Shown: piece after piece, positions 6,937 to 47,058 of the stretch
Layout of the letters: each line of letters begins with the position of its first letter
Position numbering within the stretch: position 1 is the stretch's first letter
Assembly (NCBI RefSeq): GCF_001457795.1
Contig: NZ_LN898210.1
Coordinates: 186,001-250,000, forward strand
Direction: 5' to 3'
DNA: 64,000 nt
Source of the DNA: Olsenella massiliensis
GTDB taxonomy: Bacteria; Actinomycetota; Coriobacteriia; Coriobacteriales; Atopobiaceae
The notes under the pieces: generated by a model
Databases searched by the model: none
What the model was told of the DNA's origin: nothing
The model's input: only the letters and a program-made list of their open reading frames with translations
Made by a program: the position numbers and the translations under genes

Positions 6937-7065
6937 ATGGCGCGGCCGCAGGCCGCTTCGGCTCGCGAGGTCGCCGCCCTTCTGGGTGAGGCGGACGCGG
7001 ACGAGCTGGGCGAGCTGATCGCACGGTATGCCGACGACCCGCGCCGGCAGGTGGCGCGCGCTTAA
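6937..7065 (+). CDS. rnhB: Ribonuclease HII, N-terminal fragment (broken by adapter sequence)
   Basis: ATG 6937 follows a consensus TAAGGAGG. The 42 visible residues (MARPQAASAREVAALL to DDPRRQVARA) match the N-terminal extension common in actinobacterial RNase HII. The frame then hits TAA at 7063-7065, just before Illumina/Nextera adapter sequence. The catalytic DEVGRG-type motif that should follow is missing. The C-terminal half resumes at 7184. The gene is probably intact in the organism: the break coincides with non-genomic sequence. Confidence 0.7.
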   Translation: MARPQAASAREVAALLGEADADELGELIARYADDPRRQVARA

Positions 7066-7094
7066 TGGAACGGGACCCGCGTGCTCCTCCCCCC

Positions 7095-7181
7095 TTTCCC
7101 TACCCGGCGCTCTTCCGATCTGACCTCGAGGGCGCGCCTGCCCCTGTCTCTTATACACATCTAGATGTGTATAAGAGACAG
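7095..7181. other. Sequencing-library contamination: TruSeq-like adapter plus two Tn5 mosaic ends
   Basis: TTTCCCTAC followed by CGCTCTTCCGATCT (ending 7121) is the 3' part of the Illumina read-1 adapter with a few changes. At 7144-7162 lies an exact Nextera mosaic end, CTGTCTCTTATACACATCT, followed at 7163-7181 by its exact reverse complement. The 19-bp mosaic end is an engineered hybrid, so natural Tn5 does not explain it. This is an assembly artefact that replaces part of rnhB. Confidence 0.97.
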
Positions 7182-7183
7182 GG

Positions 7184-7615
7184 GAGGTCCTGGCCGCCCG
7201 AATCCTGGCCGTGGCCGCAGCCGTGGGCGTCTGTCACGTCGAGCCCGCCGACATCGACGAGCTGGGCATGGGCCAGGCCCTGCGTCGGGCCATGGCGGGG
7301 GCCATACGCGACGCCGGCGTGACGCCCGCATGCGTCCTCATCGACGGCAACCCCGTCCATGTGCACCCGCTTGAGCGCACGGTGGTGCACGGCGACGCCC
7401 GCATAGCCTCCATCGCCGCCGCGTCCATCGTGGCCAAGGTCACGCGCGACGCCCTGATGCGCACCTACGACGAGGAGTATCCCGGCTATCACCTTGCGGC
7501 CTGCAAGGGCTATGCCTCCGCCGAGCACATAGCGGCCATCCGCGAGCGCGGGCTCACGCCGCTTCACCGGGCGAGCTTCTGTGGAAACTTCCTGGAGCCG
7601 CCCCGCCTCTTCTGA
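7184..7615 (+). CDS. rnhB: Ribonuclease HII, C-terminal fragment
   Basis: RNase HII removes RNA from RNA-DNA hybrids and misincorporated ribonucleotides. Frame from EVLAARILAVAAAVGVCHVEP to the stop at 7613-7615 gives the C-terminal two thirds of the family: the substrate-contacting LIDGNPVHVHP, GDARIASIAAASIVAKVTRD with a catalytic Asp, then YPGYHLAACKGYAS and HRASFC. The upstream catalytic motif is absent because the junction at 7182 is adapter-derived. About 60 or more central residues are lost from the assembly. No start codon is assigned. Confidence 0.85.
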   Translation, partial: EVLAARILAVAAAVGVCHVEPADIDELGMGQALRRAMAGAIRDAGVTPACVLIDGNPVHVHPLERTVVHGDARIASIAAASIVAKVTRDALMRTYDEEYPGYHLAACKGYASAEHIAAIRERGLTPLHRASFCGNFLEPPRLF

Positions 7616-8376: not shown

Positions 8377-9650
8377 TGGCGGCGTCAAACGTGTCGGTGG
8401 CGTCGGCCTGCCTCTGGGGCGTCGAGGCGCTGCCCATACAGGTCGAAGTGGCCACGTCGGCGGGGCTGCCCGGCATCTCCATCGTGGGGCTCCCGGGGGC
8501 GGGGGTCATGGACGCCCGCTCGCGGGTGCGCTGCGCCCTCAAGTCCTGCGGGTTCAAGATGCCGCCCCTGCACTATACCGTCAACCTCGCGCCTGCTGGC
8601 ATCAGAAAGAACGGCACGGGCTTTGACCTTCCCATCGCCGTGGCCGTCCTCGCCTTGAGCGGGCAGATGTCCACCGAGGGGCTCGACCGCTGCCTCTTCG
8701 TGGGCGAGCTGGGTCTGGCGGGCGAGGTGTGCGAGACGCGCGGCGCGGTGGCCTATCAGATGCTCGCTCGCAGGCTGGGGGCTCAACTCGTGGGCGCCGG
8801 CGGCGCGACGTTGGGTGCTGACGGCTGCGACCTGCGGTCCCTGCGGAGCCTGGCGGACCTTCGCCGGGGCGTGAAGGAGCTGCCTCGCGCGTCCCGCCCC
8901 GCCCCGGGCCTCGCGCCCAGTGGGGACGGTCGTGTCAAGGACCTCGACTTTGTCGACGTGTACGGCCAGGAGGAGGCAAAGAGGGCGCTGGTCATCGCCG
9001 CCGCAGGCAAACACGGCCTGCTCATGGTGGGGTCTCCCGGGGCCGGCAAGACCATGCTGGCCCGGCGCCTCCCCTCCATCCTGCCCCCTCTCACCGACGC
9101 CGAGCTCGAGGAGGTGCTGCTGATGTCGTCGGTGTCAGGCCAGCCCGTCGACGACCTGGCCGTCTCTCGGCGGCGACCCTTCAGGGCGCCGCATCATTCC
9201 GTCTCCCTGGGCGGCCTGGTGGGCGGCGGACGTCCCGTCATACCTGGAGAGATCTCCCTTGCCCATCATGGCGTGCTGTTTCTGGACGAGCTTCCGGAGT
9301 TTGCGACGAACGTCCTGCAGGCCCTGCGCCAGCCCATGGAGGACCGCTGCGTGCGCCTGGTGCGAGTGGACGGCCTCTACAGCTTCCCCTGCGACTTTCA
9401 GCTCGTGGCCGCGGCAAACCCCTGTCCCTGCGGGCATCTGGGAGACCCGGCGCGCAGCTGCAGCTGCGCGCCCGGGCGCGTCCAGGCGTACCAGGGACGC
9501 ATCGGCGGGCCCCCCCTGGACAGGATCGACCTGCACCTTGACGTGAGGCGTCCGCCCTCGCAGCTCGTGGTGAAGGGGGTGCGGGGGGTGGGGTCCGCCC
9601 CTGTCCCCTATACCCCTCCAGATGGGGATAAGCGACAGCCGTGGGCCTGA
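8376..9650 (+). CDS. comM: YifB/ComM family Mg-chelatase-like AAA+ ATPase, truncated by artefact
   Basis: ComM-type helicases promote branch migration of incoming DNA during natural transformation. The N-terminal LonC-like domain (GIVGLPGAGV-type, SRVRCALKSCGF, NLAPAGIRKNGTGFDLP) is followed by the AAA+ core with Walker A GSPGAGKTMLARRLPSILP, PFRAPHHSVS, Walker B GVLFLDELPEF and ANPCPCGHLGDP. After DRIDLHLDVRRPPSQLVV the reading meets a degraded Nextera mosaic-end palindrome at 9601, and the last 17 or so residues plus the stop are artefactual. About 80 C-terminal residues of a normal 500-residue protein are missing. ATG 8376 overlaps the yraN stop. Confidence 0.88.
   Translation: MAASNVSVASACLWGVEALPIQVEVATSAGLPGISIVGLPGAGVMDARSRVRCALKSCGFKMPPLHYTVNLAPAGIRKNGTGFDLPIAVAVLALSGQMSTEGLDRCLFVGELGLAGEVCETRGAVAYQMLARRLGAQLVGAGGATLGADGCDLRSLRSLADLRRGVKELPRASRPAPGLAPSGDGRVKDLDFVDVYGQEEAKRALVIAAAGKHGLLMVGSPGAGKTMLARRLPSILPPLTDAELEEVLLMSSVSGQPVDDLAVSRRRPFRAPHHSVSLGGLVGGGRPVIPGEISLAHHGVLFLDELPEFATNVLQALRQPMEDRCVRLVRVDGLYSFPCDFQLVAAANPCPCGHLGDPARSCSCAPGRVQAYQGRIGGPPLDRIDLHLDVRRPPSQLVVKGVRGVGSAPVPYTPPDGDKRQPWA
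9601..9638. other. Degraded Nextera mosaic-end palindrome (library contamination)
   Basis: These 38 bases align without gaps to two back-to-back 19-bp mosaic ends with 30 matches of 38. All eight differences substitute C or G. It sits exactly where comM ends abnormally and dprA begins mid-gene, so it marks a false join that has lost the comM 3' end and the dprA 5' half. Confidence 0.88.
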
Positions 9651-38236: not shown

Positions 38237-38958
38237 TCGTTGCCATCGACGGGCCCGCCGGGTCGGGCAAGAGCAGCGTCGCCAGGGCCGTCGCCCGGCG
38301 TCGCGGCCTCATGCTGCTCGACACCGGGGCCATGTATCGCGCCATCACCTGGCGCTGCCTCATGCGCGGCGTCAGCTGCGAGGACGAGGGGGCCGTCTCG
38401 CGCGAGGCGGCGCAGGCCCGGGTGAGCTTTGGCGTGGGCGACGACGGGTCGCAGACCGTCATGCTCGACGGCGACGACGTCACGCGCCAGATTCGCCTGC
38501 CCGAGGTCGATCGCAACGTCTCGGCCGTCTCCTCCTTCAAGGCGGTGCGCGAGGCCATGGTCGCCCAGCAGCGCCAGCTGGCCGCGGCACAGGACGTCAT
38601 CGCCGAGGGACGTGACGTCGGCACGGTGGTCTTCCCGCAGGCGGACGTGAAGGTCTTCCTGACGGCGGACGCCCGCGAGCGCGCCTTCCGCCTGCCTCTT
38701 ATACCCCTGGCGGGGGCATGGTGTCCGCGCCGTCGTGGGGTCCGCGGCGACCGGGTCGCCGGCTTTTGTAAGGGGCGATTCCCCGTGTCTGTTATACCCT
38801 TCTGTAGGTTAAAAAGAGCGAGGCGGGGACGAGCGGGACGCGCCCGGGCGCGGGCCCCGCTGGGGGCGGCCGCCGATGCCGTGCTCATCGACTCCTCCCG
38901 CCTCACGTTTGACGAGGTGGTCGACAGGATCGTACGGATGATGGACAGGGTGGGGTGA
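38233..38958 (+). CDS. cmk: Cytidylate kinase, corrupted in the middle by library artefact
   Basis: Phosphorylates CMP and dCMP. ATG 38233 overlaps the preceding stop. The N-terminal two thirds are normal: IVAIDGPAGSGKSSVARAVA, LLDTGAMYRAITW, VIAEGRDVGTVVFP and KVFLTADARERA. From about 38690 to 38840 the reading passes through two degraded mosaic ends and a piece of gpsA that happen to stay in frame, giving an alien stretch (LPLIPLAGAWCPRR onward). The genuine end APLGAAADAVLIDSS resumes. The LID region with the RD..DS.R motif is lost from the assembly but presumably present in the organism. Confidence 0.85.
   Translation: MIVAIDGPAGSGKSSVARAVARRRGLMLLDTGAMYRAITWRCLMRGVSCEDEGAVSREAAQARVSFGVGDDGSQTVMLDGDDVTRQIRLPEVDRNVSAVSSFKAVREAMVAQQRQLAAAQDVIAEGRDVGTVVFPQADVKVFLTADARERAFRLPLIPLAGAWCPRRRGVRGDRVAGFCKGRFPVSVIPFCRLKRARRGRAGRARARAPLGAAADAVLIDSSRLTFDEVVDRIVRMMDRVG
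38692..38822. other. Chimeric artefact: mosaic end + gpsA fragment + mosaic-end palindrome
   Basis: 38692-38710 matches the Nextera mosaic end at 14 of 19 bases. 38714-38763 copies gpsA 44567-44618 exactly apart from two single-base deletions, and weaker similarity continues to about 38782. 38785-38822 aligns ungapped with the 38-bp mosaic-end palindrome at 26 of 38. This order is what a chimeric tagmentation fragment would leave. Confidence 0.9.
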
Positions 38959-40602: not shown

Positions 40603-40640
40603 CTGGCTCTTATACACAACTAGGTGGGGTTAAGAGGCAA
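40603..40640. other. Degraded Nextera mosaic-end palindrome between ispH and the DUF512 gene
   Basis: 38 bases align ungapped to the mosaic-end palindrome with 30 matches, including an exact CTCTTATACACA core. The following 50 bases are unusually G-rich. The true sequence between ispH and the next gene is therefore uncertain. Confidence 0.9.
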
Positions 40641-40648
40641 GGCAGAGC

Positions 40649-42082
40649 ATGGGAGAGGGGCGGGGCGGGGAAGAGGGAGGAACACGGGGGGAGCGGTGGT
40701 ATTTCGACTACGCCAGCTCACGCCCGCAGGCGGACGGCGCCTGGGTCGCCGCGGTGCAGGAGGGAAGCCCCGCCTGGGAGGCGGGGCTGGAGCCGGGCAT
40801 GCGCATCGACGGCGTGGGGGGGCGTCCCCTGCGCGACATCATCGACTGGCGCTGGGAGGCCGACGGCCAGGTTGCCGACCTCGTCGTCAGCGTGCCGGGC
40901 GAAAAGGGGACCTTCGCCTGCACGCTCGAGCGCGAGCCGGGCCAGGACTGGGGCCTGACGTTCACGGACGTCCTCTTTGACGGCATACGCACCTGCGTGA
41001 ACGCCTGCCAGTTCTGCTTCATGCGCATGCTGCCCGAGGACGCGCGATCCTCCCTCATGCTCCGCGACGACGACTACCGCCTCTCGTTTCTCCAGGGCAA
41101 CTTCGTGACCCTGACGAACGTGACGGACGAGGACCTGGAGCGCATCATCCGTTGCCGCCTCGAGCCCATGAACGTGTCCATACACGCCATCACGCCCGCG
41201 GTCAGGCGCTCGCTCATAGGCCCGCACGCCCAGCGAGGCATAGACGTTCTCGAGCGGCTCTGCGAGGCGGGTCTCGAGGTTCACGGCCAGATCGTGCTCT
41301 GTGCGGGAATCAACGACGGTGACGAGCTCGCGCGGACGCTCGACTGGGTGGAGGCGCGGCCCGCGATCAGCTCGCTGGCCATCGTCCCCATGGGCTACAC
41401 GCGCTACTCGACGCGCTTCTCGTCCTCGTTCTCCGAGGACGTGGAGGCCTCGCGCCGGGTCGTCGAGCTCCTCGGCCCCTATCAGCGACGCGCCCGCGAG
41501 ACGCGCGGCATCACGCGCTTTCAGCTCTCCGACGAGTTCTACCTGGACGCTCGCATGGACGTGCCTCCCGCCGAGACCTACGACGGCTACCCTCAGTACT
41601 ACGACGGCATAGGCATGCTTCGGAGCTTCCTGGACGAGAGCGAGGAGCTGTGCCGTCTGCGCGGCGACGACCTTGCGCTTGTCACGCGGCGCCTGCGGTC
41701 GCGGGGCCTCAGGGCGCTGATCGTGTGCGGCGAGGCGGCGCTGGGCGTCAACAGCCGGCTCGTCGAGCTCTGGGACGCCGTCTGCGGAGGTGACTGCCTG
41801 GTAGGCGTCCAGGCCATCCGCAACGACTACTACGGGGGCGACGTCAACGTGACGGGGCTCATCGTGTCCAAGGACCTCCTGTCACAGCTTGCCGAGGACC
41901 TGTCCGGCACCCTCGTCGTGATACCCCAGATCATGTTCAACTTTGACGACGTCACCTTGGACGGGGACGACAAGGGGCACATCATGGACGAGCTCGCTCG
42001 CAGGGGGGCCCATGCGCTCGCCTGCGACACCACCCCCGTCGCCCTCCTCGACGCGCTTGCGGGGACGCTCGGGCTGGCATGA
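40649..42082 (+). CDS. DUF512 radical-SAM-like protein with N-terminal PDZ domain
   Basis: A 477-residue protein. A PDZ-like segment (VQEGSPAWEAGLEPGMRIDGVGG) is followed by a radical-SAM-type cysteine cluster CVNACQFCFM (CX3CX2C) and FLQGNFVTLTNVTDEDLERI. The C-terminal DUF512 region includes ITRFQLSDEFYLDA and QAIRNDYYGGDVNVTGLI. The family is conserved in anaerobic Gram-positives, often beside der, as here; its reaction is not established. The first 15 residues (MGEGRGGEEGG) come from sequence next to a library artefact, so the start is unreliable. Confidence 0.85.
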   Translation: MGEGRGGEEGGTRGERWYFDYASSRPQADGAWVAAVQEGSPAWEAGLEPGMRIDGVGGRPLRDIIDWRWEADGQVADLVVSVPGEKGTFACTLEREPGQDWGLTFTDVLFDGIRTCVNACQFCFMRMLPEDARSSLMLRDDDYRLSFLQGNFVTLTNVTDEDLERIIRCRLEPMNVSIHAITPAVRRSLIGPHAQRGIDVLERLCEAGLEVHGQIVLCAGINDGDELARTLDWVEARPAISSLAIVPMGYTRYSTRFSSSFSEDVEASRRVVELLGPYQRRARETRGITRFQLSDEFYLDARMDVPPAETYDGYPQYYDGIGMLRSFLDESEELCRLRGDDLALVTRRLRSRGLRALIVCGEAALGVNSRLVELWDAVCGGDCLVGVQAIRNDYYGGDVNVTGLIVSKDLLSQLAEDLSGTLVVIPQIMFNFDDVTLDGDDKGHIMDELARRGAHALACDTTPVALLDALAGTLGLA

Positions 42083-46286: not shown

Positions 46287-46424
46287 GGTAATAATATTAC
46301 ATAGACAACTTGAATTACATATTTTAATTTTCTTACGTGCTTGCCATGCTTAAACGTTTTTATGTCTTTAATTTTTGAATGCTTCGGCGACCACCCAGAT
46401 CTACACTCTTTCCCCCCACGACGC
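46287..46424. other. Low-GC insert followed by Illumina P5 adapter (library contamination)
   Basis: 46287-46377 is strongly AT-rich, unlike anything nearby. 46378-46424 matches the first 47 bases of the P5/read-1 adapter at 42 of 47, including the exact stretch GATCTACACTCTTTCCC. Genomic coding sequence restarts immediately after. The AT-rich piece may be from another organism or low-quality read ends. Confidence 0.95.
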
Positions 46425-46425
46425 G

Positions 46426-47058
46426 GGTGCCCTCATGCACGTCGACGCCTCACAGGCCTTCGGCCGCATACCCCTCGCGCTGGACGACGTGGACGCCGTG
46501 ACCCTCGCGGCGCACAAGATCGGCGGCCCCGTGGGCGTGGGCGCCCTGGTCGTGAGGAGCCGCTGCCCGCTGCGGCCCCTCACCTTCGGCGGGGGGCAGG
46601 AGGCGGGCAGGCGGCCGGGCACCCAGGACGTTCGGGGCGCCCTGGCCTTCGCCGCCGCGGCGCGGGCCGTCTGCGCGCGCCTCGACGACACGCGCGTCGT
46701 CGTCTCGTCTCGCGCGCAGAGGCTCTATGACCGCCTGTGCGCCGAAGGGACGGGCATCGTCCCCACGACGACGGCCCAGATGGGCCCCGACCGCCTTCCC
46801 GGCATCGTTTCGGTCATGACGGGCCGCCTCGACTCCGAGACGCTCGTGCTCAAGCTTGACGAGCGGGGCTTCGAGGTCTCGGCGGGCTCGGCCTGCTCCT
46901 CGGGCTCGCTCGACGCGAGTCACGTATTGTTGGCCATGGGCATACCGCGCGAGCTGGCCCTGGGTGCGCTGCGCATCTCGTTTGACGAGCGCGTGAGCCC
47001 CCAGGACCTCGACCGCCTCGCCGACTGCCTGCTTGGCATCGTCGCAGACGCACGCTAG
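46426..47058 (+). CDS. Cysteine desulfurase (NifS/IscS type), C-terminal fragment
   Basis: The frame carries the rest of the enzyme: GALMHVDASQAFGRIPL, the PLP-lysine in VTLAAHKIGGPVGVGALVV, RPLTFGGGQEAGRRPGTQDV, and the catalytic Cys in EVSAGSACSSGSLDASHVLL. RISFDERVSPQDLDRLAD ends it. With the upstream fragment it would form a normal protein of about 385 residues. No iscU or thiI is adjacent in the window. Confidence 0.85.
   Translation, partial: GALMHVDASQAFGRIPLALDDVDAVTLAAHKIGGPVGVGALVVRSRCPLRPLTFGGGQEAGRRPGTQDVRGALAFAAAARAVCARLDDTRVVVSSRAQRLYDRLCAEGTGIVPTTTAQMGPDRLPGIVSVMTGRLDSETLVLKLDERGFEVSAGSACSSGSLDASHVLLAMGIPRELALGALRISFDERVSPQDLDRLADCLLGIVADAR

Follow-up and report, generated by a model that had tools for sequence, protein, structure and literature searches.

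In the genome assembly of Olsenella massiliensis, the rnhB gene encoding RNase HII is broken by what is almost certainly an untrimmed Illumina Nextera mate-pair read that was built into the sequence; the break is a library artefact of a known, well-described kind, not biology. It lies in the window, the 64-kb stretch of DNA that was analyzed (positions 186001-250000 of contig C12 in a 1.82-Mb genome of 13 contigs). In the Nextera mate-pair kit, the outer adapters are of the TruSeq type. Libraries of this kind start with tagmentation; circularization then joins two 19-bp adaptors, and the circles are sheared and taken through standard library preparation (PMC3928519; PMC4074385), and the 38-bp junction occurs inside the reads, with ordinary sequencing adapters outside and fragments of up to ~12 kb (NextClip, PMC3928519; Skewer, PMC4074385). 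Three marks of such an artefact were found here, namely the 38-bp junction, outer adapters that are TruSeq rather than Nextera, and absence from related genomes.

The core of the site is a 38-bp dyad at 7144-7181 of the window, CTGTCTCTTATACACATCT followed by AGATGTGTATAAGAGACAG, which agrees with the junction at 38/38 positions. As the preliminary description had reported, it consists of the 19-bp mosaic end and its reverse complement placed back to back, each copy being exact (7144-7162 on the minus strand and 7163-7181 on the plus strand). The number of such dyads expected by chance is 0, and no shuffled sequence matched it within 3 mismatches. A read-1 adapter end had also been described 22 bp away, and GCTCTTCCGATCT is indeed exact at 7109-7121, with 22 bp separating its end from the dyad. 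On its own, this 13-mer has chance matches at 2 mismatches; the exact copy at 7109-7121 forms the terminal part of a longer match, as an ungapped alignment of 7064-7121 (plus strand) with the full 58-nt TruSeq universal/P5 adapter gives 41/58 identical positions, compared with a best score of 33/58 in 60 simulated 64-kb Markov sequences. The preliminary description thus had the terminal part of the adapter right and missed the remainder, and because the P5 match spans 7064-7121, the artefact starts at ~7063 and not at 7095. Mismatches within the P5 copy are ordered: the insert end has 0/14, the middle 3/15 and the outer end 14/29, which points to a read leaving the insert and entering the adapter with falling quality. 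A strict P5 pattern search (≤3 mismatches) returned no match because the P5 copies are degraded.

Between the adapter and the dyad, the 22 bp at 7122-7143 (plus strand) probably derive from the opposite end of the jumping fragment. They make up the whole left flank of the junction at 7144, and the assembly lacks their other copy: allowing ≤2 mismatches, no further match was found in the window or the whole assembly, and none was found in the rnhB/comM loci of relatives. Matches with 3 mismatches on other contigs were taken as chance. We infer that this scrap is a mate end whose true copy falls in another assembly gap; one candidate is the gap 2.4 kb downstream at 9601, between comM and dprA.

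The adapter debris separates two pieces of rnhB, both on the plus strand. Alignment with the intact rnhB of 18 relatives defines a 5' piece of 42 codons at 6937-7062 (MARPQ...DDPRRQVARA), while the same alignment and the Pfam RNase_HII profile define a 3' piece of 143 codons plus a stop at 7182-7615, which starts with EVLAARI. The reading frame resumes right of the dyad and continues to the stop, and the 3' piece covers positions 70-197 of the 199 in the profile. A complete RNase HII domain (PF01351) with its DEVGRG active-site region was not found, the motif being lost in the gap. In the 18 intact relatives, ~76 residues that include GVDEVGRG lie between ...RRQVARA and EVLAARI..., which bears out the earlier claim that the enzyme is split with loss of its DEVGRG region. 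With ~76 codons missing, 119 bp of adapter debris therefore stand in place of ~230 bp of a core gene.

Four further sites in the 64-kb window carry similar debris (at comM/dprA, cmk, ispH/DUF512 and a NifS-like gene). Between comM and dprA there is a degraded second junction (30/38) at 9601-9638, where comM lacks ~110 C-terminal residues and dprA lacks its N-terminal part; given the loss of the comM end and the dprA start, several hundred bp are missing at this position. Degraded mosaic-end debris occupies 38694-38822 inside the cytidylate kinase gene cmk, where a junction-like sequence at 38785-38822 scores 26/38. At 40603-40703 (minus strand), between ispH and a DUF512/radical-SAM gene, a degraded junction (30/38, 40603-40640) is followed by a reverse-strand P5 adapter (36/58, 40646-40703). 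Finally, the plus-strand debris at 46290-46435 splits a class-V aminotransferase (NifS-like) gene and comprises ~88 bp of AT-rich base calls and then, at 46378-46435, a P5 adapter (46/58). The AT-rich junk probably represents a read running beyond the end of its molecule, since in read order it comes after the adapter end.

The same debris recurs across the genome. Searches allowing ≤3 mismatches located 17 mosaic ends per strand, and the assembly holds ~17-20 mosaic-end sites, ten of which are junctions with ≤3 mismatches; in the stretches surrounding the mosaic ends, each up to 20 kb long, junction scores range from 25 to 38 out of 38. The junction (≤3 mismatches) was found in 0 of the 139 other family genomes searched. 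No TruSeq index adapter was found within the 64-kb window; the genome has it at three places, the third of which is degraded beyond the constant part. The two complete copies lie inside contigs (L210, C13:880523-880555; L211, C13:345129-345161) and read ATCGGAAGAGCACACGTCTGAACTCCAGTCAC-GCCAAT-ATCTCGTATGCCGTCTTCTGCTTG followed by poly-A, which identifies GCCAAT as the index. Near the start of contig C2, poly-T precedes an error-free P5 stretch (AATGATACGG...ACGACGCTCT). At another locus (L190:9966-10125; C13:277065-277224), two junctions stand 84 bp apart and are probably two chained mate-pair reads. Our literature search for a paper describing the library of this strain found none.

If the junctions are of mate-pair origin, their flanks should be fragment ends from the same strand that are kilobases apart and stand in the order end-junction-start; our criterion was that both flanks derive from one fragment of ~2-12 kb on the same strand. 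Flanks were searched with a stricter cut-off, since short GC-rich matches swamp an unfiltered search. Each of eight sister junctions has one flank duplicated within its own stretch, 2.4-9.6 kb away on the same strand, and the side is as predicted in 8/8. The left flank has its copy downstream at L186 (3.5 kb), L188 (9.6 kb), L191 (4.1 kb) and L193 (2.4 kb), and the right flank has its copy upstream at L187 (3.9 kb), L189 (4.3 kb), L192 (4.5 kb) and L194 (2.8 kb). If the four combinations of side and strand are equally likely, the chance of obtaining the predicted configuration eight times out of eight is ~1.5e-5. One weak site, L196, departs from the predicted geometry; there, ~200 bp to the left of a degraded mosaic end (L196:9767-9985) duplicate sequence 2.6 kb upstream, and an N is present nearby.

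The observed adapters, their order, the error gradient and the missing codons at rnhB, as well as the mate-pair geometry at the sister sites, are best explained as follows. In the mate-pair protocol, Tn5 attaches 19-bp mosaic ends to genomic fragments several kb long; when a fragment is circularized, its mosaic ends meet and form the 38-bp dyad, after which the circle is sheared and TruSeq adapters are ligated. Here a read entered rnhB from the right (7182 rightwards, read leftwards), crossed the junction and continued for 22 bp into what is probably the opposite end of the fragment; with the insert exhausted, it ran on through the TruSeq/P5 adapter as its quality fell. An assembler or gap closer most likely used this mate-pair read to bridge ~230 bp of uncovered rnhB, and we infer that the cause was a coverage gap combined with gap closing by raw mate-pair reads.

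Other origins for the mosaic ends were weighed. Engineered Tn5 transposons use the same mosaic end, and mutagenesis with one of them might have left mosaic ends in rnhB as a real chromosomal insertion. However, the mosaic ends stand back to back with no transposon body or marker between them, gene sequence has been deleted, many sites are affected in one genome, and an insertion would leave the TruSeq/P5 adapters, the index, the poly-A and the degraded copies unexplained; we regard this explanation as the most improbable of those considered, with a likelihood close to nil. Nextera paired-end (tagmentation) libraries also share the mosaic-end sequence, which would allow the debris to be ordinary adapter dimers or untrimmed short-insert reads instead of mate pairs. 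Yet such libraries have Nextera index tails and not TruSeq adapters, and paired-end tagmentation does not produce back-to-back mosaic ends that join same-strand genomic pieces kilobases apart, so this origin is highly unlikely. A mixture of two libraries was rejected as well, because the mosaic-end pair together with TruSeq adapters is the signature of a single library type, Nextera mate pair.

It could also be asked whether rnhB has truly decayed in the species, with a natural deletion that the adapter merely borders, as the 76 missing codons are not visible in the assembly. This is very improbable: the right piece has an uninterrupted frame over its 143 residues and good conservation, with identities to relatives of up to 78%; the gene is otherwise single copy, with no second RNase HII elsewhere in the genome; searches of 39 other genomes gave a match in 38; and further adapter sites in the genome likewise remove parts of core genes such as cmk and dprA. 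There is a similarly slight chance that the adapter is an artefact and part of the missing rnhB is nevertheless really absent, leaving the strain without a working RNase HII. The untrimmed mate-pair read therefore stands as the explanation; the preliminary description had rightly called the break an assembly fault, and the sequencing adapters of which it is made narrow that fault to one library type, Nextera mate pair.

The result matters for data quality only. In the collection searched, this genome is the representative of its species, and gene losses at its adapter sites are not to be believed; the apparent truncations of rnhB, comM, dprA, cmk and the NifS-like gene are most likely false. 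Errors are present in many of the adapter copies, up to 12 in 38 positions, and exact-match screens miss these copies.

Elsewhere among published species genomes, the exact 38-mer turns up in at least 119 stretches, and within contigs it was found in Collinsella ihumii GD8, Bittarella massiliensis GD6, Enterococcus sp. 10A9_DIV0425 and Ideonella sp. MAG2. It is also present, among the matches listed, in records titled as chromosomes (CP017948, CP051244). Among the matches listed, 49 of 67 second flank copies in those assemblies show the predicted mate-pair configuration, a count limited to unique second copies because repetitive flanks inflate it. As the junction is present in many other published assemblies, adjoining gene absences and short duplicated flanks should be masked before evolutionary inference is made. 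The Collinsella, Bittarella, Enterococcus and Ideonella assemblies share the exact 38-mer with the rnhB site and come from other organisms and projects, whereas most junction copies in the O. massiliensis genome carry read errors, so that exact adapter screens would miss these. Compared with the Nextera mate-pair junction adaptor of NextClip and Skewer, the rnhB site has the same 38-bp structure and shows no difference in kind; it differs in that the unclipped read was here carried into the assembly.
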